Virus record (IMG/VR): IMGVR_UViG_3300042472_000431 | Coordinates: 1-37,200 of that record | Reading direction: 5' to 3' (one strand) | Length of the DNA: 37,200 nucleotides | From: a virus | Part shown: positions 1 through 37,200 of the stretch, piece by piece | Layout: the number at the start of each line of letters is the position of its first letter | Position numbering within the stretch: the first letter of the stretch is position 1 | Made by a program: the position numbers and the translations under genes | Notes under the pieces: model-generated | The model's input: only the letters and a program-made list of their open reading frames with translations | The model's database searches: none | What the model was told of the DNA's origin: nothing

Positions 1-107
1 CCTGCCATGTCACGCGGGAACGACGTGCCGGGGTTGGCGCGCGTCAGGTCAGTGAGCGTGTAGGGGTAGACCGGATCTTCACCCGGTACGGTCAGGATGT
101 AGAACAT
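1..107 (-). CDS. Tail assembly chaperone, N-terminal part (gene continues across the window ends)
   Basis: The frame opens with ATG at 107 (TGATG overlap with the stop of the upstream 79-residue gene) and runs off the left end after 35 codons, starting MFYILTVPGEDPVYPYT. Alone it is truncated. The last five bases of the window repeat the first five, and merging them joins this frame to the one entering at the right end, giving a 149-residue protein. The C-terminal part has the look of the phage tail assembly chaperone family (Phage_tail_APC). The N-terminal part is not recognised by itself. In that family the small protein helps fibres or tails assemble and is usually encoded beside fibre genes, as here. 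The reading frame is certain; the joining is an inference, but a strong one. Confidence 0.8.
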   Translation of the reverse strand, partial: MFYILTVPGEDPVYPYTLTDLTRANPGTSFPRDMA

Positions 108-346
108 CAGCCCTCCAACTGCTTGGCAATCACGTCGCGCATGATGATCTCTTTACGCTGCTCGACAATCGACGAGGCCAGCAAGTCAGCGAGACGGGCG
201 CGGAAGTCTGCAATAGCCGCATCGTCCGCGTAGTTGGTGTCAATCTCCGCAATCGCCAGCGTGTAGTTGTCGATATTGATCTGATGCTGGAACACCTCGG
301 CTTCACGGTGAGCGAGGGCGGGGGTGAGGATTTCGTGTCTGTTCAT
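107..346 (-). CDS. Small hypothetical phage protein in fibre module
   Basis: This 79-residue acidic, helix-prone protein has no recognised domain. It follows the propeller gene with one base between stop and start, and a GGAG ribosome binding site lies within the end of that gene. Its own stop overlaps the start of the tail assembly chaperone gene. Position between a putative receptor-binding protein and a tail chaperone suggests a role in tail fibre assembly or attachment, but the sequence does not show it. The tight spacing and good ribosome binding site make it a convincing gene. Confidence 0.75.
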   Translation of the reverse strand: MNRHEILTPALAHREAEVFQHQINIDNYTLAIAEIDTNYADDAAIADFRARLADLLASSIVEQRKEIIMRDVIAKQLEG

Positions 347-347
347 A

Positions 348-1388
348 TTATATTGCTCCGAAGGTCACGCCGTATCCACTGCCTGTTGGCAGCGTGGCTG
401 GATTAGAGAACTTGGTGCCGAAGCCCGATCCAGACCAAGGGTATGCGGTTATGTATGGGGACGTGGCGTGCGCTACAGCAATGGCAGCGCCGGATGGGGA
501 GAAGGCTACGTCGTATCCAGTGCCAACCGGCAACGTTGCTGGATTAGCAAACTTTGTCCCAAAGCCGCTGCCACTCCACGGATAAGCCGTGACAAATGGG
601 GACACGTCGTGCGCTACGGCAATAGCATCTCCAGAAGGAGAAAAGTCAACGCCCCAGCAAGTACTCGCTGGCCGCGTAGCGGGGTTAGAGAACTTGGTGC
701 CGAAGCCCGATCCAGACCAAGGGTATGCGGTGATAAAAGGAGTGTTAAAATGCGCCACGGCAATAGCATCTCCAGAAGGAGAAAAGGCAACGCCGTATCC
801 ACTGCCTGTTGGCAGCGTAGCGGGGTTAGAGAACTTGGTGCCGAAGCCCGATCCAGACCAAGGGTATGCGGTTATGTATGGGGACGACCCGTCCGCCACG
901 GCAATAGCATCTCCAGAAGGAGAAAAGGCAACGCCCGAGCCAGTAGACGCTGGCAGCGTAGCGGGGTTAGAAAACTTGGTGCCGAAGCCCGATCCAGACC
1001 AAGGGTATGCGGTTATGTATGGGGATGCCGAATGCGCTACAGCAATGGCAGCGCCGGATGGGGAGAAGGCTACGCCCGCGCCAGTAGACGTCGGTAGCGT
1101 AGCGGGGTTAGAGAACTTTGTCCCGAAGCCGCTGCCACTCCACGGATAGGCGGTTATGTATGGGGACGAGGCGTGCGCTACAGCAATGGCGTTACCTGTC
1201 GGAGTAAACGCGACTTCGTCGCCATATCCTGTCGGTATCGTAGCGGGGTTAGAGAACTTTGTCCCAAAGCCGCTGCCAGACCAAGGGTATGCGGTTATGA
1301 ATGGGGGCGTGGTGTGCGAAACCGCTAAATACTGCGCCGCAGTTGGCGTCGGCGTGGCAGTTGCCCCTTTGAGTCTCTGTGACAGCAT
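348..1388 (-). CDS. Seven-bladed WD40-like beta-propeller, putative receptor-binding tail protein
   Basis: The 346-residue protein is almost wholly seven repeats of exactly 47 residues, each containing YPWSGSGFGTKF followed by NPATLP-TG, V-FSPSG and AIAVAH--SPYITA. The FSPSG / AVAH pattern resembles WD40-like propeller blades. The protein begins in mid-blade (QYLAVSH) and ends with the preceding strand (GVTFGAI), so the two ends could complete one blade, the usual closure of WD40 propellers. Differences cluster in the turns SPYI/TPFI and TG-GYGV. The start overlaps the stop of the trimeric fibre gene (TGATG). Its place among fibre genes suggests a tip or receptor-binding role. That role is inferred, and no enzymatic motif is visible. 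Confidence 0.8.
   Translation of the reverse strand: MLSQRLKGATATPTPTAAQYLAVSHTTPPFITAYPWSGSGFGTKFSNPATIPTGYGDEVAFTPTGNAIAVAHASSPYITAYPWSGSGFGTKFSNPATLPTSTGAGVAFSPSGAAIAVAHSASPYITAYPWSGSGFGTKFSNPATLPASTGSGVAFSPSGDAIAVADGSSPYITAYPWSGSGFGTKFSNPATLPTGSGYGVAFSPSGDAIAVAHFNTPFITAYPWSGSGFGTKFSNPATRPASTCWGVDFSPSGDAIAVAHDVSPFVTAYPWSGSGFGTKFANPATLPVGTGYDVAFSPSGAAIAVAHATSPYITAYPWSGSGFGTKFSNPATLPTGSGYGVTFGAI
390..1345 (-). repeat. Seven tandem 141-bp units coding propeller blades
   Basis: A landmark in the sequence GAACTT(G/T)GT recurs at 411, 552, 693, 834, 975, 1116 and 1257, an exact 141-bp period (47 codons). Two codon versions of the same YPWSGSG segment exist: one at 411, 693, 834 and 975, and another at 552 and 1116. 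The unit at 1257 starts in one version and ends in the other. The period divisible by three also keeps several other frames open on both strands; those frames are not genes. Confidence 0.95.
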
Positions 1389-2965
1389 CAGGCGTCACCC
1401 ACCCGAGCGCCGTAGATCGTCGTGCCGACTTTCCACAACACGATGACCGTATAGCCCGTAGTCGCCAGCGTCGGCGCACTGCCGCCGTTGGTTTCCCACA
1501 CCACGCCAAGCGTCGTCCACGTCACCGTGTACGCTGTGCCGTCATCGATCATCAATGTGATCGACTGCCCTGCGGCCCAGTTCGCTTGCGTGGGAGTGCG
1601 GCTTGCGCCCAGCGTCCATGTCTGGATGCTGCCGTTGTTGGGATCAAGAACAGCGCCCGCAGCGTCAACGACAGCAAACACAGTCTCCGTGTAGCTCTTG
1701 AGAAACTTCACGTCGCCAAAGATGCGCGCCGAGGTGGTGCTGCTGTTGCCGATGGTGGTTTCGTTGCTTACGGTAGCTGACGAGGCGGCGGCGTTGTACC
1801 CAAGCAGGATGTTGTTGCTGCCTGTGGTAAGGTTATTTGTGCCGGAGTTGCCTGCGTTCGCGCCAAGAAGGGTGTTTTGCTGACCGGTCGTTACCGCTCG
1901 CCCGGCATTTTGCCCTGTCGCAGTATTTTGGCTGCCAGTTGTCAAAACATAAAAAGCATAGGCACCAACAGCACTGTTATTAGATACGGATGCATCGTAA
2001 AGCGCGCCATATCCAAAAGCAATGTTATCGTTGCCGGTAGTGGTATTTCGCATCGACTGAAAACCGAGCGTGCTGTTACGCGATCCGGTAGTATTACTAA
2101 GAAGCGATTGATTTCCAACTGCTGTATTACTATCACCTGTAGTATTTTCTTGTAATGCCGCATTACCAACAGCCGTGTTGGCGTCGGCAGTGTTTTTAGA
2201 AAGCGCGCTTTTCCCAAGAGCCGAGTTTTGCACTCCAATAGTGTTTAAGCCAAGTGCAGAATAACCTACTGCGGTGTTAAAATAGCCAGTTGTGTTGGCA
2301 TCCAGCGCCAAAGAGCCGACTGACGTATTCTGAAAACCCGTCGTATTGTCCTTGCCGGCCTGATACCCGATAAACGTATTGTTAAGGCCAGTTGTATTCA
2401 GACCAGCCTCAAAACCCAGTGACGTTTCAAACGGCGTTGCGCTATCAGTAACGCCCAGCAACGAAGCGCCAGACGCAGCGCTTGTCCACGTTGTGCCGTT
2501 GCTGGTTAGGACGTTGCCATTGCTGCCGGGTGCAACAACCTGCACCGCAGTCGTGCCGTTGCCAAGAATGACATTGTTGGCCGTAAGCGTTGTCGCGCCA
2601 GTGCCACCGTTTGCCACCGCCACAGTGCCGGTCACGTCGTTGGCCAGATTAACCGCGTCATAGGGCGCGATTGCAAAAACCCGCTTTGTGCCAACAGCAA
2701 AGGAAACCCGCGCGCCTGTGCTGCTAGCTCGCAGCGTGCCGCGTGTCAGCGTGCCGCCGGTTGACCAAGCGCCATCAGTGGCTTCCCAATCACCCGAAGG
2801 CGCGCCCGATCCGTCGATTGCCTCAATGACATAGGTGACGGTATCGCCGTTAGCCACGGTTGCCGAAAATGCCGAAAAGCCCGTTTCGGCCCCGGCAAGA
2901 GTCAATGTCCCAGTGCCAACCGTAGTCGTCGTTTCGGACACACGGTAAGGGCGCACATAGGCCAT
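1388..2965 (-). CDS. Trimeric tail fibre with YadA-head-like repeats
   Basis: The 525-residue protein starts MAYVRPYRVSETTTT, with a beta-rich N-terminal attachment domain of the GTGTLTLAG type seen in many phage fibres. A linker follows (NGGTGATTLTANN). About residues 210-420 are repeats of the form NTAVGYSAL--NTTG, like the left-handed trimeric coil of YadA-type adhesin heads. The C-terminal beta domain has no peptidase S74 chaperone motif. An upstream in-frame start would put 41 Arg-rich residues over the previous gene, so the ATG four bases after that gene's stop was chosen. The protein probably forms a host-contact fibre outside the particle. The neighbouring propeller gene may provide the tip. 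Confidence 0.85.
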   Translation of the reverse strand: MAYVRPYRVSETTTTVGTGTLTLAGAETGFSAFSATVANGDTVTYVIEAIDGSGAPSGDWEATDGAWSTGGTLTRGTLRASSTGARVSFAVGTKRVFAIAPYDAVNLANDVTGTVAVANGGTGATTLTANNVILGNGTTAVQVVAPGSNGNVLTSNGTTWTSAASGASLLGVTDSATPFETSLGFEAGLNTTGLNNTFIGYQAGKDNTTGFQNTSVGSLALDANTTGYFNTAVGYSALGLNTIGVQNSALGKSALSKNTADANTAVGNAALQENTTGDSNTAVGNQSLLSNTTGSRNSTLGFQSMRNTTTGNDNIAFGYGALYDASVSNNSAVGAYAFYVLTTGSQNTATGQNAGRAVTTGQQNTLLGANAGNSGTNNLTTGSNNILLGYNAAASSATVSNETTIGNSSTTSARIFGDVKFLKSYTETVFAVVDAAGAVLDPNNGSIQTWTLGASRTPTQANWAAGQSITLMIDDGTAYTVTWTTLGVVWETNGGSAPTLATTGYTVIVLWKVGTTIYGARVGDA

Positions 2966-4607: not shown

Positions 4608-4629
4608 GATCAGGTTACCCTTTCGTCAT

Positions 4630-4654
4630 AAAAAAAGCCCGCCGGATGGCGGGC
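4630..4654 (-). terminator. Hairpin with U7 directly before the capsid gene
   Basis: The minus-strand stem GCCCGCC / GGCGGGC with a 4-base loop is followed by seven T. The T-tract ends 22 bases before the capsid ATG. This is the downstream copy of the duplicated hairpin. Transcripts from the protease gene must read through two such elements to reach the capsid gene. Confidence 0.8.
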
Positions 4655-4681
4655 CTGGTGTCTGCTTTCGCGCGCGAGCGC

Positions 4682-4760
4682 CTAGGCAGGAGTGCGGAGC
4701 TTCAGCGCTGCAATGCGCTGATATTGCTCGATCATTGTGCTGGCATCCGGCATCGCCGGC
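4682..4760 (-). pseudogene. Duplicated remnant of the protease C-terminus
   Basis: The frame on the minus strand here reads as a variant of the last ~25 residues of the protease, ending in ALKLRTPA before TAG. The real gene ends ALRLRTPA. It has no start and no ribosome binding site and lies after the protease stop and its terminator. It is a by-product of the 147-bp duplication and is not expected to be translated. Confidence 0.75.
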
Positions 4761-4776
4761 TTGCCATTTAGGTCAT

Positions 4777-4801
4777 AAAAAAAGCCCGCCGGGTGGCGGG
4801 C
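4777..4801 (-). terminator. Hairpin with U7 after the protease gene
   Basis: The same GCCCGCC / GGCGGGC stem and T7 tract as the copy 147 bp downstream. It begins 28 bases after the protease TAG. Two in a row should form an effective but possibly regulated block between the packaging/portal/protease genes and the capsid gene. Confidence 0.8.
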
Positions 4802-4828
4802 TTGGTGTCTGCTTTTGCTTGCGAGCAA

Positions 4829-5629
4829 CTAGGCAGGAGTGCGGAGCCGCAGCGCTGCAATGCGCTGGCGTTGCTCGTTCAGGGCGCTGGCATCCGGCAT
4901 ATCGGGTGCAGCGGGATCGTCGGGCGCTTCCGGGGCTTCCGGCGCGTCCTCAATTTCAATGGTGATGGTAACGCTCGTGTCCTGCACCGGGGGCTTGGCG
5001 TATGCGCTCAAGTCCCATTGCTTCATTGCCTTTGGTGCAATGGCACTCACCTCGTCGGCAAGCCCGGCTTCGATTGCCTGCTGCCCGGTAAGCCAAGTCT
5101 CAGCGGCCATAAGCGAGCTAAACATATCGGCGTTATTATCTTTGCCGCGTTTAGCTGCGGCATCGGCGTAGCTTTCCGCCAGTGTTGCGTCGATGCCTTC
5201 CAGCGTTGCGGCTTGCTTCATAAACTCATCAGCATTGCCAGCGGCGATAGTCCACGCCTTGTGGATCATCATCCGCGCGCCTTTCGCCATTTCGATTTTG
5301 TCGCCAGCAATAGCAATGATTGAGGCGGCGCTAGCGGCAAAGGAATCAACAACGCAAGTTACTTGACCGGGATATGCGGCGATAGCATTTGCCATCGCGA
5401 TGCCCGCAAACACGTCTCCACCGGGGCTGTTGATGCGCACCGACACGTCGCCATTCATGGACGAAAGTGTCTGGTTGAACGTTTCAGCGTCAACGCCGCC
5501 AAGCCAGTCGGCATCGGCCTTAGACGACACAATGTGGTCATAGACAAAAAGGACGTTGCCTTCGGCGCGGAATTTTTCCCCCACGTCCTTGTTGGCGCGA
5601 AACAGATTGAGCAAGCGGTTAGGCTGCAT
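4829..5629 (-). CDS. Prohead maturation protease, ClpP/S49-like
   Basis: The 266-residue protein has a ClpP-type fold. INSPGGDVFAG at residues 67-76 is the oxyanion-loop region, SFAASAAS carries the likely catalytic Ser100, and ARMMIHKAW gives the likely catalytic His123. The C-terminus is acidic and Ala/Pro-rich, then charged (QRQRIAALRLRTPA). It should cleave the capsid N-terminal domain and portal or scaffold segments inside the prohead. The start overlaps the portal gene end by 11 bp. The 3' end was duplicated in the following spacer. Confidence 0.95.
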   Translation of the reverse strand: MQPNRLLNLFRANKDVGEKFRAEGNVLFVYDHIVSSKADADWLGGVDAETFNQTLSSMNGDVSVRINSPGGDVFAGIAMANAIAAYPGQVTCVVDSFAASAASIIAIAGDKIEMAKGARMMIHKAWTIAAGNADEFMKQAATLEGIDATLAESYADAAAKRGKDNNADMFSSLMAAETWLTGQQAIEAGLADEVSAIAPKAMKQWDLSAYAKPPVQDTSVTITIEIEDAPEAPEAPDDPAAPDMPDASALNEQRQRIAALRLRTPA

Positions 5630-14031: not shown

Positions 14032-14591
14032 GCGGTGGCGCTCTCGGCGGGCCAGTCGATAACCTGCGCGTTTTGCAAAGCAGACAACAGTGTGGCTGTT
14101 GGAACGGCGACGCTTTCAGTAATGTAACCGCGGCCAAAACTGCCGACGTTGTGCGCTTCTACTGTGCGAAAGCCGTCCGCCCGCTGATTTGCCTTGTCTA
14201 TCCATGTGCGTCCGTTCTGCTGCCAAGCGCGGCGCAGCAACATAAACGGGATCAGATAACAGCGTCTGTCGGGGACGAGAGCATAAGCTATAAAATCGCA
14301 AGCCAAGTCCTTTTGCACCCAGCCTGGGATGTTGGAGCCGCGATCTGACCAACGCTCTAAAAGAATGTCGTTATAGCTCTTGTCGCGGACCTTTTCGTCA
14401 ATCGTGACTGTCTTGCCTGATTTAAGCGTAACCACGCGGTCAATGCCCGCCCGCTGCGCCCAACCGTCATCGCGAACCGAAACAGCCGACAAAAAACCGG
14501 GAAAGGCTGTCTGATAGATTGCGTCCCACCACGGTGAACTTTCATGCTGGTGCGATAACGCCAGACTTTTTTCAAAGACATGAACAGTCAT
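14028..14591 (-). CDS. Putative PD-(D/E)XK nuclease-like protein
   Basis: The 187-residue protein contains GIDRVVTLKSGKTVTIDEKVRD (shown in two parts: Asp51 in GIDR, Asp65-Glu66-Lys67 in TIDEK). The spacing fits the D...(D/E)xK core of restriction-type nucleases. LACDFIAYALVP and a later WIDKAN could complete the fold. It overlaps the methylase gene by four bases, so both are made from one message. No nuclease of this exact type is recognised, and specificity cannot be read. Alternative roles are DNA repair or degradation of host DNA. Confidence 0.65.
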   Translation of the reverse strand: MTVHVFEKSLALSHQHESSPWWDAIYQTAFPGFLSAVSVRDDGWAQRAGIDRVVTLKSGKTVTIDEKVRDKSYNDILLERWSDRGSNIPGWVQKDLACDFIAYALVPDRRCYLIPFMLLRRAWQQNGRTWIDKANQRADGFRTVEAHNVGSFGRGYITESVAVPTATLLSALQNAQVIDWPAESATA

Positions 14592-15814
14592 TCGGCATCA
14601 CCGGATTGGTTGCCCCAAACGGCCCAGCCTTGTCGTGGTGAGCGGCAAAATAGTTCAATCTTTTGCAAGCCGGAATACGCTTCCTCAATCATTTCATAGT
14701 AAAATAAAGGCTTGGCAGAATGTGCTGTGCGCGCCTCACGGTGAACGCTTGACGGCTGCTTTCCGGCTTGTGGCGGCGGGATATTGCCTCGCTTGCAGAT
14801 CAGCAAAATTTCATGCTGATTCCTGGCGTGGTAGCCCATGCCAATCTTTTCTTTGTCCCACACAATATTGGTGCGGTATTCAAAGCCCCATGCCTTAACC
14901 ACCTCAAGGCATTCAGCCAGTTTGGGCGCTGTTGCCCACAAATAAAGCATGGCGTCATCTGCCGCCAATTCCGCTATCGGCATGGCGCAAATTTCTTCAA
15001 GCGTCATCGTAGGGTAATGATTTTCGATCGCGCGATTGCCGGCGCCCATCGGCGGATTCTCATAACGCCAGGGCGGATCGGCATAGACGACTGGGTATTT
15101 TGTGGAGGTATCCAGCGCCGTATTTCCGCGACTGATTTCATCAATTTTTTGCAGTCGTTCGCCGCGCGAGATCACAGCCTTTTCAGCGCGAATAGCCTTG
15201 GCTGCGGCTAAGATTTCCTTTTCGCCTTTAGCCACAATTTCGCGCTGTTGATCGTGCGGAACTTGCGCAATCTCAGCAGCGGCGGAAACCGAAGCCATGC
15301 CGCTATCGACAGCCGCCACCAGTTCCGGCGCACCGTGTTCTTGAACCTTGCGGGCAGTGCGAACGCTGCGCTCGGAGACGTTCAGCAAGCTGGCAGCTTC
15401 GGATTGGCTGACTGGTGGTGGCGCGACGGATTGGGAGACGTAAAGCGGCAAATTTGCCGGATTAGCTGGCTTCCCGACCCGCATATTCGCCAGCCGCGCC
15501 GCAATGCTGGCCCGCTGCGATTCAGTCAGGTGGCGGCGGTGCAAATTGGTGCTGATAACAAACGCCAGCGCGGCGGCGTCATCGCCCACAAAGTCGCGCG
15601 TTGGAACATCAATGCCGATGTCGTTGGCGGCTAAACAGCGGTTGCGCCCGTCTAGCACTTTGCCCTGGTACAACATGACCGGCTCACGGATGCCGTGTTC
15701 TGCAATGTCGGCAGAAAGCATGGCAAGCGTATCGCTAGACAGCATCGGAAACAGGTTGGCGTATTCGTGCCAGGTGTCGGGAGTGGCGCGCATGGCCAAA
15801 GCAAGGGCGCTCAT
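14588..15814 (-). CDS. ParB-like domain fused to MT-A70 adenine methyltransferase
   Basis: The 408-residue protein has a ParB/Spo0J-like N-terminus (IREPVMLYQGKVLDGRNRCLAA at about 42-63, then a helical segment with TESQRASIAARLAN and an HTH around SQSEAASLLNVSERSVRTARKV). The C-terminal MT-A70 methylase has VVYADPPWRYENPP (DPPW at 246-249), NIVWDKEKIGMGYHARNQHEILL and HSAKP (365-369). It should make N6-methyladenine in DNA. The ParB-type part may direct it to sites or clamp DNA. Such fusions are common in phages. Confidence 0.93.
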   Translation of the reverse strand: MSALALAMRATPDTWHEYANLFPMLSSDTLAMLSADIAEHGIREPVMLYQGKVLDGRNRCLAANDIGIDVPTRDFVGDDAAALAFVISTNLHRRHLTESQRASIAARLANMRVGKPANPANLPLYVSQSVAPPPVSQSEAASLLNVSERSVRTARKVQEHGAPELVAAVDSGMASVSAAAEIAQVPHDQQREIVAKGEKEILAAAKAIRAEKAVISRGERLQKIDEISRGNTALDTSTKYPVVYADPPWRYENPPMGAGNRAIENHYPTMTLEEICAMPIAELAADDAMLYLWATAPKLAECLEVVKAWGFEYRTNIVWDKEKIGMGYHARNQHEILLICKRGNIPPPQAGKQPSSVHREARTAHSAKPLFYYEMIEEAYSGLQKIELFCRSPRQGWAVWGNQSGDAE

Positions 15815-18721: not shown

Positions 18722-18972
18722 CGCCCGAGCAATCTGCCGAGCGCGCCCAACAGATCGCGAAGATGCCGCCCGGCAACTTCAGGCATCGCTGTTTTGACGA
18801 CCTCATCAACAGCATCGCTAGCGAGCATGGCCATGGCGAGGCTGTTGCAATCTTTGATGCCGTCGCCGCGCCCGACCATTACGATATTGAACAAGCCCCA
18901 TTCTCCGCACTCCAATTATTAACCGGCAAAACGTCCGATGAATGGCGTGAAATTAAGGAGCTTAAAGCATGA
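18718..18972 (+). CDS. Hypothetical early protein
   Basis: The 84-residue acidic protein starts MTPEQSAERAQQIAKMPPG, with a helical FDDLINSIASEHGHGEAVAIFDAV. GGAGGG lies nine bases before the ATG, so it does not depend on the frame of the gene before it. No family is recognised. It overlaps the next small membrane protein gene by four bases. Confidence 0.75.
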   Translation: MTPEQSAERAQQIAKMPPGNFRHRCFDDLINSIASEHGHGEAVAIFDAVAAPDHYDIEQAPFSALQLLTGKTSDEWREIKELKA

Positions 18973-19073
18973 CCCGCCGCACTTTCCCCCAGGCGCTTTG
19001 TCTTGGCTTTGTGATGGCCGGCATTGTCGCGGCAATCGTGACCGGGTTCAAGGGGTTGCTGTCATGGTATTGA
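18969..19073 (+). CDS. 34-residue single-pass membrane protein
   Basis: The ATG overlaps the preceding stop (ATGA). The peptide starts MTRRTFPQALC and has one hydrophobic helix (LGFVMAGIVAAIVTGF) before KGLLSWY. The basic N-terminus suggests it stays in the cytoplasm. The exonuclease gene starts inside its end (10-bp overlap). It is the second mini membrane protein of this operon. The function is unknown. Confidence 0.55.
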   Translation: MTRRTFPQALCLGFVMAGIVAAIVTGFKGLLSWY

Positions 19074-19762
19074 TAGCCGGCCCCGTATTCCACGAAGCTT
19101 TCGATCAAGGTTCGGAGGCTTGGCTACAGGCCAGGTGCGGCCTGCTCACGGCAAGCGGGATGAAGCTGATCGTCACGCCGACGTTAAAGCCCGCCAGCAA
19201 TGACAAAGAACGCTCCCACCTTTACGAACTCCTGGCGCAACGCATCACCGGCCATGTCGAACCGCAGTTTATTACGGACTCAATGCTGCGCGGCCATGAA
19301 GACGAGATAACCGCCCGCGCGCTCTATGCCAAGCATCATGCGCCAGTGCATGAAATCGGCTTTATTACCAATGACCGCTGGGGCTTCCCGATCGGCTATT
19401 CACCCGATGGCCTGGTCGGCGAGCATGGCCTAATCGAATGCAAGTCTCGCGCACAAAAGTATCAGGTGCAGACCGTCATCGAAAACGCCGCAACCGGCAC
19501 GATCCCGGCTGATTACCTCATTCAATGCCAGACCGGGATGCTCGTTGCCGATCGTCACTGGTGCGATTTCATCAGCTTTAGCGCCGGCCTGCCGATGATC
19601 GTTGTCCGCGTCCACGCTGACCCCGTTTTGCAGGATGCCATCATTGCAGCCGCATCAGCCTTTGAGGCGCGGCTTACCGACAAGCTGGCGACGTTTAGCG
19701 AAACCGTGACCGCGCTGGGAATGATCCCGACAAAGCGCACCGTTGAAATGGGAATTTTCTAA
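19064..19762 (+). CDS. YqaJ-like phage exonuclease (lambda Exo-like)
   Basis: The 232-residue protein opens with EAFDQGSEAWLQARCGLLTAS, the usual N-terminus of YqaJ-family exonucleases. Active-site residues are Asp115 in GYSPDGLVG and Glu125-x-Lys127 in LIECKS, with later DYLIQCQTGMLVADRHWCDF. It should degrade one strand from double-stranded ends to expose DNA for annealing. The ATG follows AAGGGG at good distance. The next gene starts at its stop (TAATG) and is the likely partner. Confidence 0.95.
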   Translation: MVLIAGPVFHEAFDQGSEAWLQARCGLLTASGMKLIVTPTLKPASNDKERSHLYELLAQRITGHVEPQFITDSMLRGHEDEITARALYAKHHAPVHEIGFITNDRWGFPIGYSPDGLVGEHGLIECKSRAQKYQVQTVIENAATGTIPADYLIQCQTGMLVADRHWCDFISFSAGLPMIVVRVHADPVLQDAIIAAASAFEARLTDKLATFSETVTALGMIPTKRTVEMGIF

Positions 19763-20469
19763 TGTCCGATATGTCGCAAGTCATCGAAGCCAAGAGCGAC
19801 CAGATCAACGCTGGCGATCTGGTTGGCATCAGCCGCACAATCCGCGTTGCTTCCGTCAATGTGATCCCAGGCGAAGATCAACCGGTTTTGATAAAGGTCG
19901 ATGGCGACAAGAAGGCATACAAGCCTTGCAAGTCTATGTGCCGCGTTCTGGTTGCCGCATGGGGTGCAGAAAGCGCCAAATATGCCGGGCGTTCGATGAC
20001 CCTCTACAATGACCCGGACGTTCTGTGGGCAGGCATGAAAGTCGGCGGCATTCGCATCAGCCACATGTCGCATATCGACAGCCCGATCACCCTGGCGCTG
20101 GCCGAAAACAAAAAGAACCGAAAACTATTTACCGTCAAGCCGCTGCAAACCCAGCGCGCCGATACCCCCGCCGTCGCTTCTCCCCCAGCGACCGCTGCCG
20201 AAACCCCATTAATCGACGCCGGGCAGTCAGCCGGGGCGGCGTCAACCGACCGCATAACCGCCTATTGCGAGACCGTCATGGACGCCATCAACGCCGCCGA
20301 AACCGTCGCCGATCTGGACGCTATCGAAGGCAAAGCGGCTACCAAGCTGGCGAACCATGCCAACCAGTTGGCGTACATCCGAGCGGCTGTTGAGTTTAAG
20401 CTGCCGTTCCTGGCGGCGCAGGGTGACGATGGCTTTGGGACTGACGCTGGCGCTCGGGTGACGGCATGA
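19762..20469 (+). CDS. Hypothetical recombination-associated protein
   Basis: The 235-residue protein has an N-terminal beta-rich domain (NAGDLVGISRTIRVASVNVIPGEDQPVLIKVDG, CRVLVAAWG, AGRSMTLYNDPDVLWAGMKVGGIRISHMSHID; seen in short parts). A Pro/Ala-rich linker and a helical tail follow (YCETVMDAINAAETVADLDAIEG). Its start touches the exonuclease stop, as annealing proteins or SSBs do in Exo-Bet-type operons. The sequence is not clearly RecT, Erf or SSB, so it is a candidate partner only. Confidence 0.75.
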   Translation: MSDMSQVIEAKSDQINAGDLVGISRTIRVASVNVIPGEDQPVLIKVDGDKKAYKPCKSMCRVLVAAWGAESAKYAGRSMTLYNDPDVLWAGMKVGGIRISHMSHIDSPITLALAENKKNRKLFTVKPLQTQRADTPAVASPPATAAETPLIDAGQSAGAASTDRITAYCETVMDAINAAETVADLDAIEGKAATKLANHANQLAYIRAAVEFKLPFLAAQGDDGFGTDAGARVTA

Positions 20470-35183: not shown

Positions 35184-35464
35184 ATTGCCTCCACCGGCCC
35201 GATGCGCACGTCAAATGATTGGACATAAATCCGGCTTTGGCTTGTCGTGACGGTGTTGGTGACCGAGTAGACAGCGCGATAAAGCCCGCCCGACAAAATG
35301 CAGGATGTGACGACGCCATTGACCGCCGGACTGCCACCAACCACCGCAAGCCCGCCGGTATCAACAGGGACGATCGTCCAGGTTGACGTGGAGATGGTTT
35401 CGCCGCCTGTCAGGGTGTAGCTGATCGGCCAATCAAGCGCCGATGTGGGAGCCTTGATGATCAT
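35180..35464 (-). CDS. Fibre-tail adaptor-like protein
   Basis: The 94-residue protein, MIIKAPTSALDWPISYTLTGGETISTSTWTIVP (in parts), with VVTSCILSGGLYRAVYSVTNTVTTSQSRIYVQSFDVRIG, has the single Ig-like plan of phage fibre-tail adaptor proteins. It lies between the repeat protein and the gp6-like gene, with 4-bp overlaps on both sides. It probably attaches a fibre or decorates the virion. Confidence 0.75.
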   Translation of the reverse strand: MIIKAPTSALDWPISYTLTGGETISTSTWTIVPVDTGGLAVVGGSPAVNGVVTSCILSGGLYRAVYSVTNTVTTSQSRIYVQSFDVRIGPVEAI

Positions 35465-36594
35465 CCGTTAACCCCTTGCAAAGAACGGACCCCGCCGCCG
35501 GAAAACTGTCGGTTGCCGGATGACGAAAGACTGCGGGCCGCACCGCCGGAAAATTGGCGGGTGGTTGACGGCGTGTAGATGGCCGTGCCGCCGGTAATTG
35601 TTATTAAGGCGTTGCTGCCAACCAGCGGAAAACTTGCGCCGCCACCCTCGAGCCTTGCCTTTGCCCGCGTTATTGTGCCGGCGCCTAAAATGCCGATCGC
35701 GCCAGATTGCCCAATCGTGTTTGCCCTGGCGCGGACTGTAGCCTGATTGCCGACAAGCGGCAGGCTACCGACTGCTGGTGTGGTCCTGGCATTGGCTCGC
35801 AGCGTGGCGGCGCCACCAAGCAATGGCAGCGTCGTCGAAACAATCCCCAGCGTCGAACGTGCGTAAAGTGTGGCAATCGCACCAACCAGGCCCAAGCTGC
35901 TGCTTGCCGGCGCGGTGCCGGCATTGGCCCGCAGAGTGGCGGCGCCACCAAGCAATGGCAGCGTCGTCGCTGTCGGCATAATCCGAAGCGTCAGAGAAGC
36001 GTAAAGTGTGGCGGTCCCGCCAACCAGGCCCAAGCTGCTGCTTGCCGGCGCGGTGCCGGCATTGGCCCGCAGAGTGGCGGCGCCACCAAGCAATGGCAGC
36101 GTCGTCGCTGTCGGCATAATCCGAAGCGTCAGAGAAGCGTAAAGTGTGGCGGTCCCGCCAACCAGGCCCAAGCTACTGTTTGCAGGCGCGAGCGACGCCT
36201 TGGCGGCTATATCGGTAGAGCCGCCGGTCAGGCCCAAGCTACTGTTTGCTGGCGCGGGTACCGCCCTAGCCGAAAGTGCCGCCGCGTCGCCTACCAAGCC
36301 CAGGCTGCTGTTTGTAAATACAAGCGACGCCCTGGCAGCGAGAACCGCCGCGCCGCCAACCAGGCCGAAGTTGCCATCTGCCAGCGCAAGCGCCGCCTTA
36401 GCCGCGAGATCCGTAGCGCCGCCTGCTAGGCCCAAGCTACTGTTTGCCGGCGCGAGCGCTGCCCTAGCCGCAAGATCCGTAGCGCCGCCGACCAGCGCAA
36501 GCGCGCCAGCCACGGGCGCTATAACAATTCCGCGCGAAACGACGCGCCCAAAACTGCCGATCGGGCGTGCGCCTAATGGTGAAAATCCGGTCAT
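35461..36594 (-). CDS. Repeat-rich putative fibre/virion surface protein
   Basis: The 377-residue protein starts MTGFSPLGARPIGSFGRVV. The middle (about 50-320) is about a dozen or more units of 22-24 residues of the type SSLGLVGGTATLYASLTL / TTLPLLGGAATLRANAGTAPA. Alternating hydrophobic residues and Gly-Gly turns suggest a beta-solenoid or stacked sheet. The C-terminus has RQFSGGAARSLSSSGNRQFSGG. It lies between small fibre-assembly genes and the adaptor-like gene. It may be a fibre shaft or outer protein; no known family is recognised. Confidence 0.7.
   Translation of the reverse strand: MTGFSPLGARPIGSFGRVVSRGIVIAPVAGALALVGGATDLAARAALAPANSSLGLAGGATDLAAKAALALADGNFGLVGGAAVLAARASLVFTNSSLGLVGDAAALSARAVPAPANSSLGLTGGSTDIAAKASLAPANSSLGLVGGTATLYASLTLRIMPTATTLPLLGGAATLRANAGTAPASSSLGLVGGTATLYASLTLRIMPTATTLPLLGGAATLRANAGTAPASSSLGLVGAIATLYARSTLGIVSTTLPLLGGAATLRANARTTPAVGSLPLVGNQATVRARANTIGQSGAIGILGAGTITRAKARLEGGGASFPLVGSNALITITGGTAIYTPSTTRQFSGGAARSLSSSGNRQFSGGGVRSLQGVNG
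35882..36157 (-). repeat. Perfect tandem repeat, 2 x 138 bp, in the repeat-protein gene
   Basis: The 138 bases from 35882 recur identically from 36020, and the match continues about 17 bases into a third, diverged unit. The unit is 46 codons, so the frame is kept. Neighbouring units are clearly diverged. The perfect identity points to a recent duplication, or an unstable tract that assemblies may collapse or expand. Confidence 0.93.
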
Positions 36595-36595
36595 G

Positions 36596-36847
36596 TTAGC
36601 CCGGAGCGCCCAAGAATGTTTGGCCGTCCGCGATAGCCTGATTAATAGCAGACATATCCTCGTTAGCCCAAAAGTCCTTTGCAAGCATTATCTTAAGGTG
36701 CTGCACGTTGCGGCTAACACAATCTTTTTTAGCGTCTTGCGTGTCAACGACCATTTGATCGCCAGCGATAACGGCATTAATCAGCCAAACGCTGTCACCC
36801 ATAGCCTTGTAATGCTGTGCGATCTGTTCCGGCGTTGGCGAATCCAT
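36596..36847 (-). CDS. Small hypothetical protein of the fibre module
   Basis: An 83-residue protein starting MDSPTPEQIAQHYKAMGDSVWLINAVIAG and continuing QNAKK/QDAKKDCVSRNVQHLKIMLAKDFW. The charged helical profile resembles small accessory tail proteins, but no domain is recognised. GGAG lies eight bases before ATG, and the preceding chaperone stop is five bases away. A TTG nine codons upstream is a less likely start. Confidence 0.7.
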   Translation of the reverse strand: MDSPTPEQIAQHYKAMGDSVWLINAVIAGDQMVVDTQDAKKDCVSRNVQHLKIMLAKDFWANEDMSAINQAIADGQTFLGAPG

Positions 36848-36852
36848 GATGA

Positions 36853-37200
36853 TTACTCCGGTTGCGTTGGCCAATTAACGGAATACGGGAAGTTTGGCTG
36901 TGCGGTTATGTCTCGCAAGGCTTGGCGATACGTTGCCCATGCCGCTTTTTGCGTGTTAGTCAGTGGCGCATCGTCAACTTGCGTCCAATCAGATGCGGCC
37001 AATTTCTCGTTTCGTTCGTAGCGCACCGCGCCGGCTTGCGCCTCAACCTGTTCCGGCGTTGGCTCGACAAGCTCCCAGCGTTCCTGCCACACGCCGTCCA
37101 CCAGTTCGGGCGCAATGCGCTGCGCCACCATGCCAGTGGCCTCCGGCGGCGTCGTGTCCTGCACCGGGTAGCAATACCAGTCGCTGCCGTCGAAGCCTGC
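36853..37200 (-). CDS. Tail assembly chaperone, C-terminal part (gene continues across the window ends)
   Basis: The frame enters from the right end (AGFDGSDWYCYP) and ends PNFPYSVNWPTQPE. The segment RYERNEKLAASDWTQVDDAP, then LTNTQKAAWATYRQALRDI, is the Phage_tail_APC family pattern. GTG at 37164 is not needed as a start, because the left-end frame joins it exactly after merging the shared CCTGC. The full protein would be 149 residues. It is likely a fibre or tail assembly chaperone. Confidence 0.88.
   Translation of the reverse strand, partial: AGFDGSDWYCYPVQDTTPPEATGMVAQRIAPELVDGVWQERWELVEPTPEQVEAQAGAVRYERNEKLAASDWTQVDDAPLTNTQKAAWATYRQALRDITAQPNFPYSVNWPTQPE

Follow-up and report, generated by a model that had tools for sequence, protein, structure and literature searches.

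Repeat proteins whose units are homogenized while their surfaces diversify have been described in fungi. In Podospora anserina, the hnwd allorecognition genes (het-d/het-e/het-r) carry near-identical WD-type repeats that evolve in concert and exchange units, and their top face diversifies at pairs of sites in the d-a and b-c loops that are separated by 18 residues (PMC1805685, PMC2873952). These genes encode NACHT receptors with a variable repeat number. In prokaryotes, highly repetitive WD40 propellers of the PkwA type (e.g., 2ymu) combine nearly identical blades with variable interaction hotspots (PMC5587647). Phage propellers are treated in the accessible part of one report (PMC4901313), which places them in fibre or baseplate proteins with proposed host binding (phi11 RBP, PRD1 P2 and PhiKZ gp131C). 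That part gives the phi11 and PRD1 rings as five-bladed, proposes that phi11 uses one cavity rather than a diversified face, and describes no blade exchange for the three. A constant scaffold bearing variable residues is also found in phage receptor proteins diversified by DGRs, such as the tentaclins (PMC10743442).

The gene described here lies in a 37,200-nt stretch of viral DNA, analysed as a whole and referred to as the window. It shares the constant scaffold and variable residues of the DGR receptors. However, a search of the 37-kb circular record for a reverse transcriptase (PF00078) gave no match; therefore, a DGR does not explain the propeller diversity, which appears to be carried by repeats and recombination. 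Unlike hnwd, the phage gene stands beside fibre genes, its blade number is locked to sevens, and a Pfam search of the protein found no NACHT domain. In contrast to the PkwA type, its blade is 47 residues long, carries YPW in place of WD, scores below the Pfam cut-off and belongs to a tail cassette. Propellers in phage receptor proteins (PMC4901313) and highly repetitive propellers (PMC9218822) are already known. What may be new here is a phage propeller family behaving like the fungal recognition genes, for which we found no earlier report; the literature search, outside which most subscription papers lie, returned no phage propeller with blade exchange.

The propeller gene and its predicted ring

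The gene encodes 346 residues on the minus strand and extends beyond the 390–1345 assigned by the initial annotation on both sides (Table 1). The 12-residue motif YPWSGSGFGTKF occurs seven times, and all six spacings are exactly 47 aa (141 nt), with TRF scores of 852 and 1043 over the repeats. There are six full units, and the N-terminus completes the seventh. The motif is written in two codon versions that differ at 12 of 36 nucleotides. Version A (TAC CCT TGG TCT GGA TCG GGC TTC GGC ACC AAG TTY) is carried by units 3, 4, 5, and 7, and version B (TAT CCG TGG AGT GGC AGC GGC TTY GGG ACA AAG TTY) by units 2 and 6. In unit 1 (window 1289–1254), an A-type start is followed by a B-type remainder. 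The split reaches past the motif, where the codons of VAFSPSGxAIAVA also part units 2 and 6 from 3, 4, and 5. The 141-bp period, the division of four units against two and the switch within the unit at 1257 had all been recognized in the initial annotation. Its description of the blades as exact holds for their length but not for their sequence, pairwise identity being 62–86% for nucleotides and 66–87% (mostly above 75%) for amino acids.

Exact searches for versions A and B gave matches solely in this phage's own contigs. The idea that a pair of codon versions is peculiar to this phage was nevertheless dropped, as AGY and TCN serines are mixed within one gene in 32 of 51 family genes and the motif has 138 further DNA versions in the family. 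At the two motif serines, all four AGY/TCN combinations are seen among blades, a set that would not easily be reached by single-base mutation.

Structure prediction with AlphaFold2, using an alignment with 39 relatives, gave a closed seven-bladed WD40-type propeller (mean pLDDT 93.3, pTM 0.90). Among solved structures, the model comes closest to designed seven-bladed propellers (7bid: Z 40.1, rmsd 1.7 across 286 residues) and to 2ymu, a naturally occurring WD40 ring of the highly repetitive type (Z 35.2), which is also matched in a PDB sequence search (E 2.7e-35). By alignment with 2ymu, the strands are a (GVAFSP), b (AIAVAH), c (ITAYPWS), and d (GTKF). One blade, that of unit 7, is split: DSSP and the WD40 alignment pair the C-terminal strand a (residues 338–345) with the N-terminal strands b and c (19–37). 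The model thus has the four-stranded blades, closed ring, and split-blade closure of WD40 propellers, in agreement with the earlier reading of half-blade ends as a sign of a closed WD40-like ring. At the level of the predicted model, computation shows the gene product to be a closed seven-bladed ring. With the fold and pairwise blade identities all above the 60% median that delimits highly repetitive beta-propellers, it belongs among them. The repeat has neither GH nor WD dipeptides, and YPW ends strand c. Because its score against PF00400 is 11.4 bits, below the gathering threshold of 27, the protein is called WD40-like and is not filed under that family. Pfam and PHROGs searches returned no function for it.

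Table 1. Coordinates of the propeller gene, its motif copies and linked genes in the window.
Feature	Position	Strand	Basis or remark
Seven-bladed beta-propeller gene, 346 aa	348..1388	−	ORF and seven 141-nt units; AlphaFold2 pLDDT 93.3, pTM 0.90; Z 40.1 to 7bid, 286 residues
Unit 1 motif, hybrid (A start, B remainder)	1254..1289	−	Codon table
Unit 2 motif, version B	1113..1148	−	Codon table
Unit 3 motif, version A; exact 564-nt (4 x 141) junction site of contig L083	972..1007	−	
Unit 4 motif, version A	831..866	−	Codon table
Unit 5 motif, version A	690..725	−	Codon table
Unit 6 motif, version B	549..584	−	Codon table
Unit 7 motif, version A	408..443	−	Codon table
Upstream fibre gene, YadA-head-like repeats	1388..2965	−	PHROG virion structural / tail spike matches
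79-aa gene directly 3' of propeller, 1-bp gap	107..346	−	Homologue in 163/254 propeller loci (some loci are overlapping fetches of one contig)
Tail fibre assembly / tail assembly chaperone (Phage_tail_APC), N-terminal part	1..107	−	Spans circular genome ends
Same chaperone gene, C-terminal part	36853..37195	−	PF16778, E 7.3e-24; join shown by contig L082
YqaJ / RecE-like exonuclease	18938..19762	+	PF09588, PHROG; candidate supplier of recombination

Relatives, blade number, and the variable face

Scans of IMG/VR with three queries returned 381, at least 578, and 170 related stretches, and judged by these matches the propeller module is widespread, on several hundred viral contigs. In the Caudoviricetes record MW202701, a "wD40 repeat protein" is homologous to the window propeller at 65% identity, as is Orf76 of Pseudomonas phage POR1 at ∼30%; the records of these two propellers assign no function. 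The phage DNA collection searched held no near match to the gene. Bacterial matches are mostly scattered MAGs. Propeller homologues also occur in MAG or genome contigs assigned to many phyla (L085–L100), among them an archaeal bin (Nitrosotalea) and an isolate of Pararhodobacter; these contigs could be viral or represent prophages.

Among 126 complete, distinct ORFs, seven units were counted in 79, 14 in 25, and 21 in three, so that 107 of 126 have 7, 14, or 21 blades. In the longer ORFs, the spacing is ∼52 aa between rings and 47 aa within them. Blade number is therefore locked to whole rings. Most of the remaining ORFs are full-length genes with one weak unit missed, distant relatives, or frameshifted fragments; L083, with three units, and L027, with five, depart clearly from the rule. 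Variation of blade number as a tuning device was considered, but the idea gave way to the quantised counts. It is apparently the content of the blades that is shuffled, not their number. Accordingly, invariance of blades across relatives, which the initial annotation had named as evidence against its proposal, applies to number (locked to 7, 14, or 21) but not to codon set, which varies. In some phages (L004, L065, and L062), two or three propeller genes lie adjacent to each other, with seven blades each.

Blade variability was computed over 686 distinct blades (277 in a smaller set). In the full set, entropy is highest at columns 40, 24, 22, and 41 (3.43, 3.32, 3.05, and 2.55 bits, respectively) and near zero at Y1, F8, G9, P15, and F28, and the variable columns hold 534 distinct four-residue combinations. 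Columns 22 and 24 fall in the d-a loop, and columns 40 and 41 in the b-c loop. The top face of WD40 propellers is built from these two loops, and its residues R1-2, R1, and D-1 (consensus 16, 18, and 34) make the majority of contacts (PMC3419727); in Podospora hnwd, codons 7, 9, 25, and 27 diversify (PMC1805685). Columns 22, 24, and 40 are spaced exactly as the WD40 hotspots and match Podospora codons 7, 9, and 25 in both spacing and loops. The 12-residue motif falls within strand c and the turn between c and d, on the face opposite the variable loops. From WD40 topology and the alignment, the variable residues would thus occupy the top face and the motif would be part of a bottom-face framework.

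At columns 22, 24, and 40, pN/pS is 1.14 (bootstrap 1.05–1.24), only slightly above 1 and with silent sites near saturation, which leaves some room for relaxed constraint; for this reason, we regard selection at these columns as relaxed at the least and probably as diversifying. The framework, with a pN/pS of 0.21, is under strong purifying selection, as the initial annotation had supposed for the protein as a whole. Its further suggestion that shuffled turn residues could face the receptor agrees with the diversified surface, but the motif in which the codon switch was seen is itself framework.

Fibre neighbourhood and genome context

The window represents one entire circular phage genome (37,195 bp), since the five bases at its end repeat those at its start and the circular join is spanned by an independent contig (L082). 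Judged from its terminase, portal, S24 repressor, and integrase genes, this is a temperate phage of the HK97 type. Its terminase most resembles those of HK97-group phages (59%), and its capsid those of phages recorded as infecting cyanobacteria (57%).

The propeller gene is tightly packed with its neighbours. The TGA of the upstream fibre gene overlaps the propeller ATG as TGATG, and the chaperone start overlaps the stop of the 79-aa gene in the same way; in relatives, the 79-aa gene often lies 3 nt past the end of the propeller ORF. A chaperone homologue is present in 199 of the 254 propeller loci, overlapping fetches included. Beside the propellers of L002 and L009, the C-terminal 106 aa of the fibre are 95–97% identical to those of the window, while the upstream fibre proteins otherwise give no alignment to the window fibre; the fibre end and the propeller therefore form a cassette. 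In other relatives, the propeller is fused directly behind tail-fibre domains (L031, PHROG 6320, E 9e-32; likewise L038), the fusion partners being collagen-like and T4-like fibre domains, and in L059 it follows the N-terminal domain of the window fibre itself (57% over 170 aa). An overlap between propeller and fibre genes, as seen in the window, also exists in the cultivated Pseudomonas phage POR1, where the fibre gene is collagen-like. Like phage receptor-binding proteins, the propeller is thus encoded in or fused to a tail-fibre cassette. Based on the fusions, the coupled upstream fibre, and the chaperone neighbour, a receptor-binding fibre tip is the best reading: most likely, the propeller would sit at the tip of a tail or side fibre, with its top face binding a host surface molecule.

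Other parts of the genome also contain repeats. A 407-aa protein (35461–36684, minus strand) has three near-identical tandem units of 138 nt and further 66-nt repeats; it has no Pfam or PHROG match, and among the first 80 loci its only homologue, besides this phage's own contig, is in L054. Between the capsid and protease genes (4625–4900), a 147-nt stretch is directly duplicated (87%), each copy starting with an A-run and the GC hairpin GCCCGCC..GGCGGGC. An MT-A70 adenine methyltransferase domain (PF05063, E 7e-21) is encoded at 14588–15814 on the minus strand; by eye, the N-terminal part before it resembles ParB.

Probable blade exchange and competing explanations

At unchanged codons, third-base identity between genes is 0.417 for blades at the same position and 0.416 for blades at different positions, and 0.600 within genes (1115 gene pairs). 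Within-gene silent identity exceeds the expectation from codon usage in 39 of 39 genes (0.594 vs 0.415), the window gene included (0.602 vs 0.370). A within-gene excess with no effect of position between genes is the signature of concerted evolution; in this respect the family resembles hnwd, and its blades are shown by computation to evolve in concert at silent sites. In the window gene, mosaic runs of silent sites go beyond chance (P 0.0002 to 0.005 by phase, Sawyer-type permutation). Clustered silent tracts at P<0.05 were found in a minority of the family (19 of 85 genes). The recombination or gene conversion among blades first suggested by the two codon sets is thus borne out both by the mosaic and by the silent-site excess. 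In close phage pairs, the flanks are mostly 90–99% identical and the propeller 65–90% in most segments. For L003/L008, the values are 93–99% for the flanks versus 77–88% for the propeller, with off-diagonal matches inside the latter; L002/L009 and window/L002 likewise diverge more in the propeller than in the flanks.

The ring, the constant frame, the variable face, the concerted evolution, and the fibre linkage all follow from computation, and we consider it probable that they belong to a WD40-type propeller at a fibre tip, diversified by blade recombination and by selection on one face. Inter-blade identities of 50–60 nt would allow homologous exchange or single-strand annealing, perhaps helped by the phage's own RecE-like system. 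The candidate is the YqaJ/RecE-like exonuclease (PF09588, E 2e-14; PHROG RecE-like exonuclease); that annealing is also phage-encoded, with 19762–20469 as the partner of the exonuclease, is conjecture. Copying of blade segments, inside one gene or from one related gene to another, would generate new combinations of surface residues and at the same time homogenize the frame. Ring closure would remove variants other than whole sevens, and new or changing host receptors would keep the surface diverse by selection. A broader view, in which the tandem blades are the self-contained repertoire of a retroelement-free diversifying receptor, kept at whole sevens by ring closure and parallel to the fungal recognition genes, is put forward tentatively, as possible rather than probable.

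If the top face binds receptors, the family would represent a widespread host-recognition module diversified by repeat recombination and not by reverse transcriptase. Repeat homogenization, ring closure, and receptor switching could then be linked and tested in one small phage gene, and the same surface sites would diversify in fungal self-recognition and in phages. Such a propeller would also offer a natural, very regular scaffold with a constant frame and a variable face.

Whole blades or genes might instead be swapped between phages in mixed infections, with conversion within the gene playing a minor part. The fibre C-terminus and propeller do move together among phages whose fibre N-termini are unrelated, and several phages hold two or three propeller genes side by side. 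We nonetheless find this account doubtful: silent identity within genes is above both the between-gene level and the codon-usage expectation throughout the 39 genes, and homogenization inside the gene is therefore needed.

A recent amplification of one blade into seven, in which similarity would reflect recency and the loops would be unconstrained with no special diversification, is unlikely. Repetitive propellers derived from a single blade are known in all kingdoms, including viruses (PMC9218822), and the pN/pS of the variable columns lies near 1. However, the blades differ widely from each other at silent sites (pS ∼0.5) although the protein framework is conserved; they are therefore not recent copies. 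Two diverged codon versions coexist in the window gene, positional identity between genes has been erased, and a family of hundreds holds exactly seven blades per ring.

The propeller could also be a virion part with another job, such as a head decoration or a baseplate enzyme processing polysaccharides. The gene for the window fibre directly follows that for the major capsid protein, which makes a head location possible, and the best PHROG of the fibre belongs to the head and packaging category. Moreover, enzymes are common among propellers, and the structural matches of the model include lactonase-like folds. Such a job seems improbable all the same in view of the tail-fibre-domain fusions and the tail-assembly-chaperone neighbour, and the variable top face shows no conserved catalytic set, the invariant residues being framework. 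A head-only role was rated lower than the fibre tip owing to the tail-fibre fusions in relatives.

It is very improbable that the codon mosaics and blade losses are short-read assembly artefacts, even though tandem repeats mis-assemble and L083 and L027 show exact unit losses, since a separately assembled contig carries the propeller gene with 100% identity (L001/L082), its longest exact internal repeat is only 61 nt, and the same phages from several samples give the same seven units (L009–L014 and L017–L021). For these two blade-deletion contigs themselves, assembly collapse could be the source. Over 6.2 kb, L083 matches this phage at 99.9% but lacks precisely 4 x 141 nt; the deletion junction has 53 nt of identity, and the contig may represent a real deletion allele or an assembly product. 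At its end (L083:6403–6416), the final 14 bases differ from the window after 181 matching ones; thus, the downstream haplotype may differ too.
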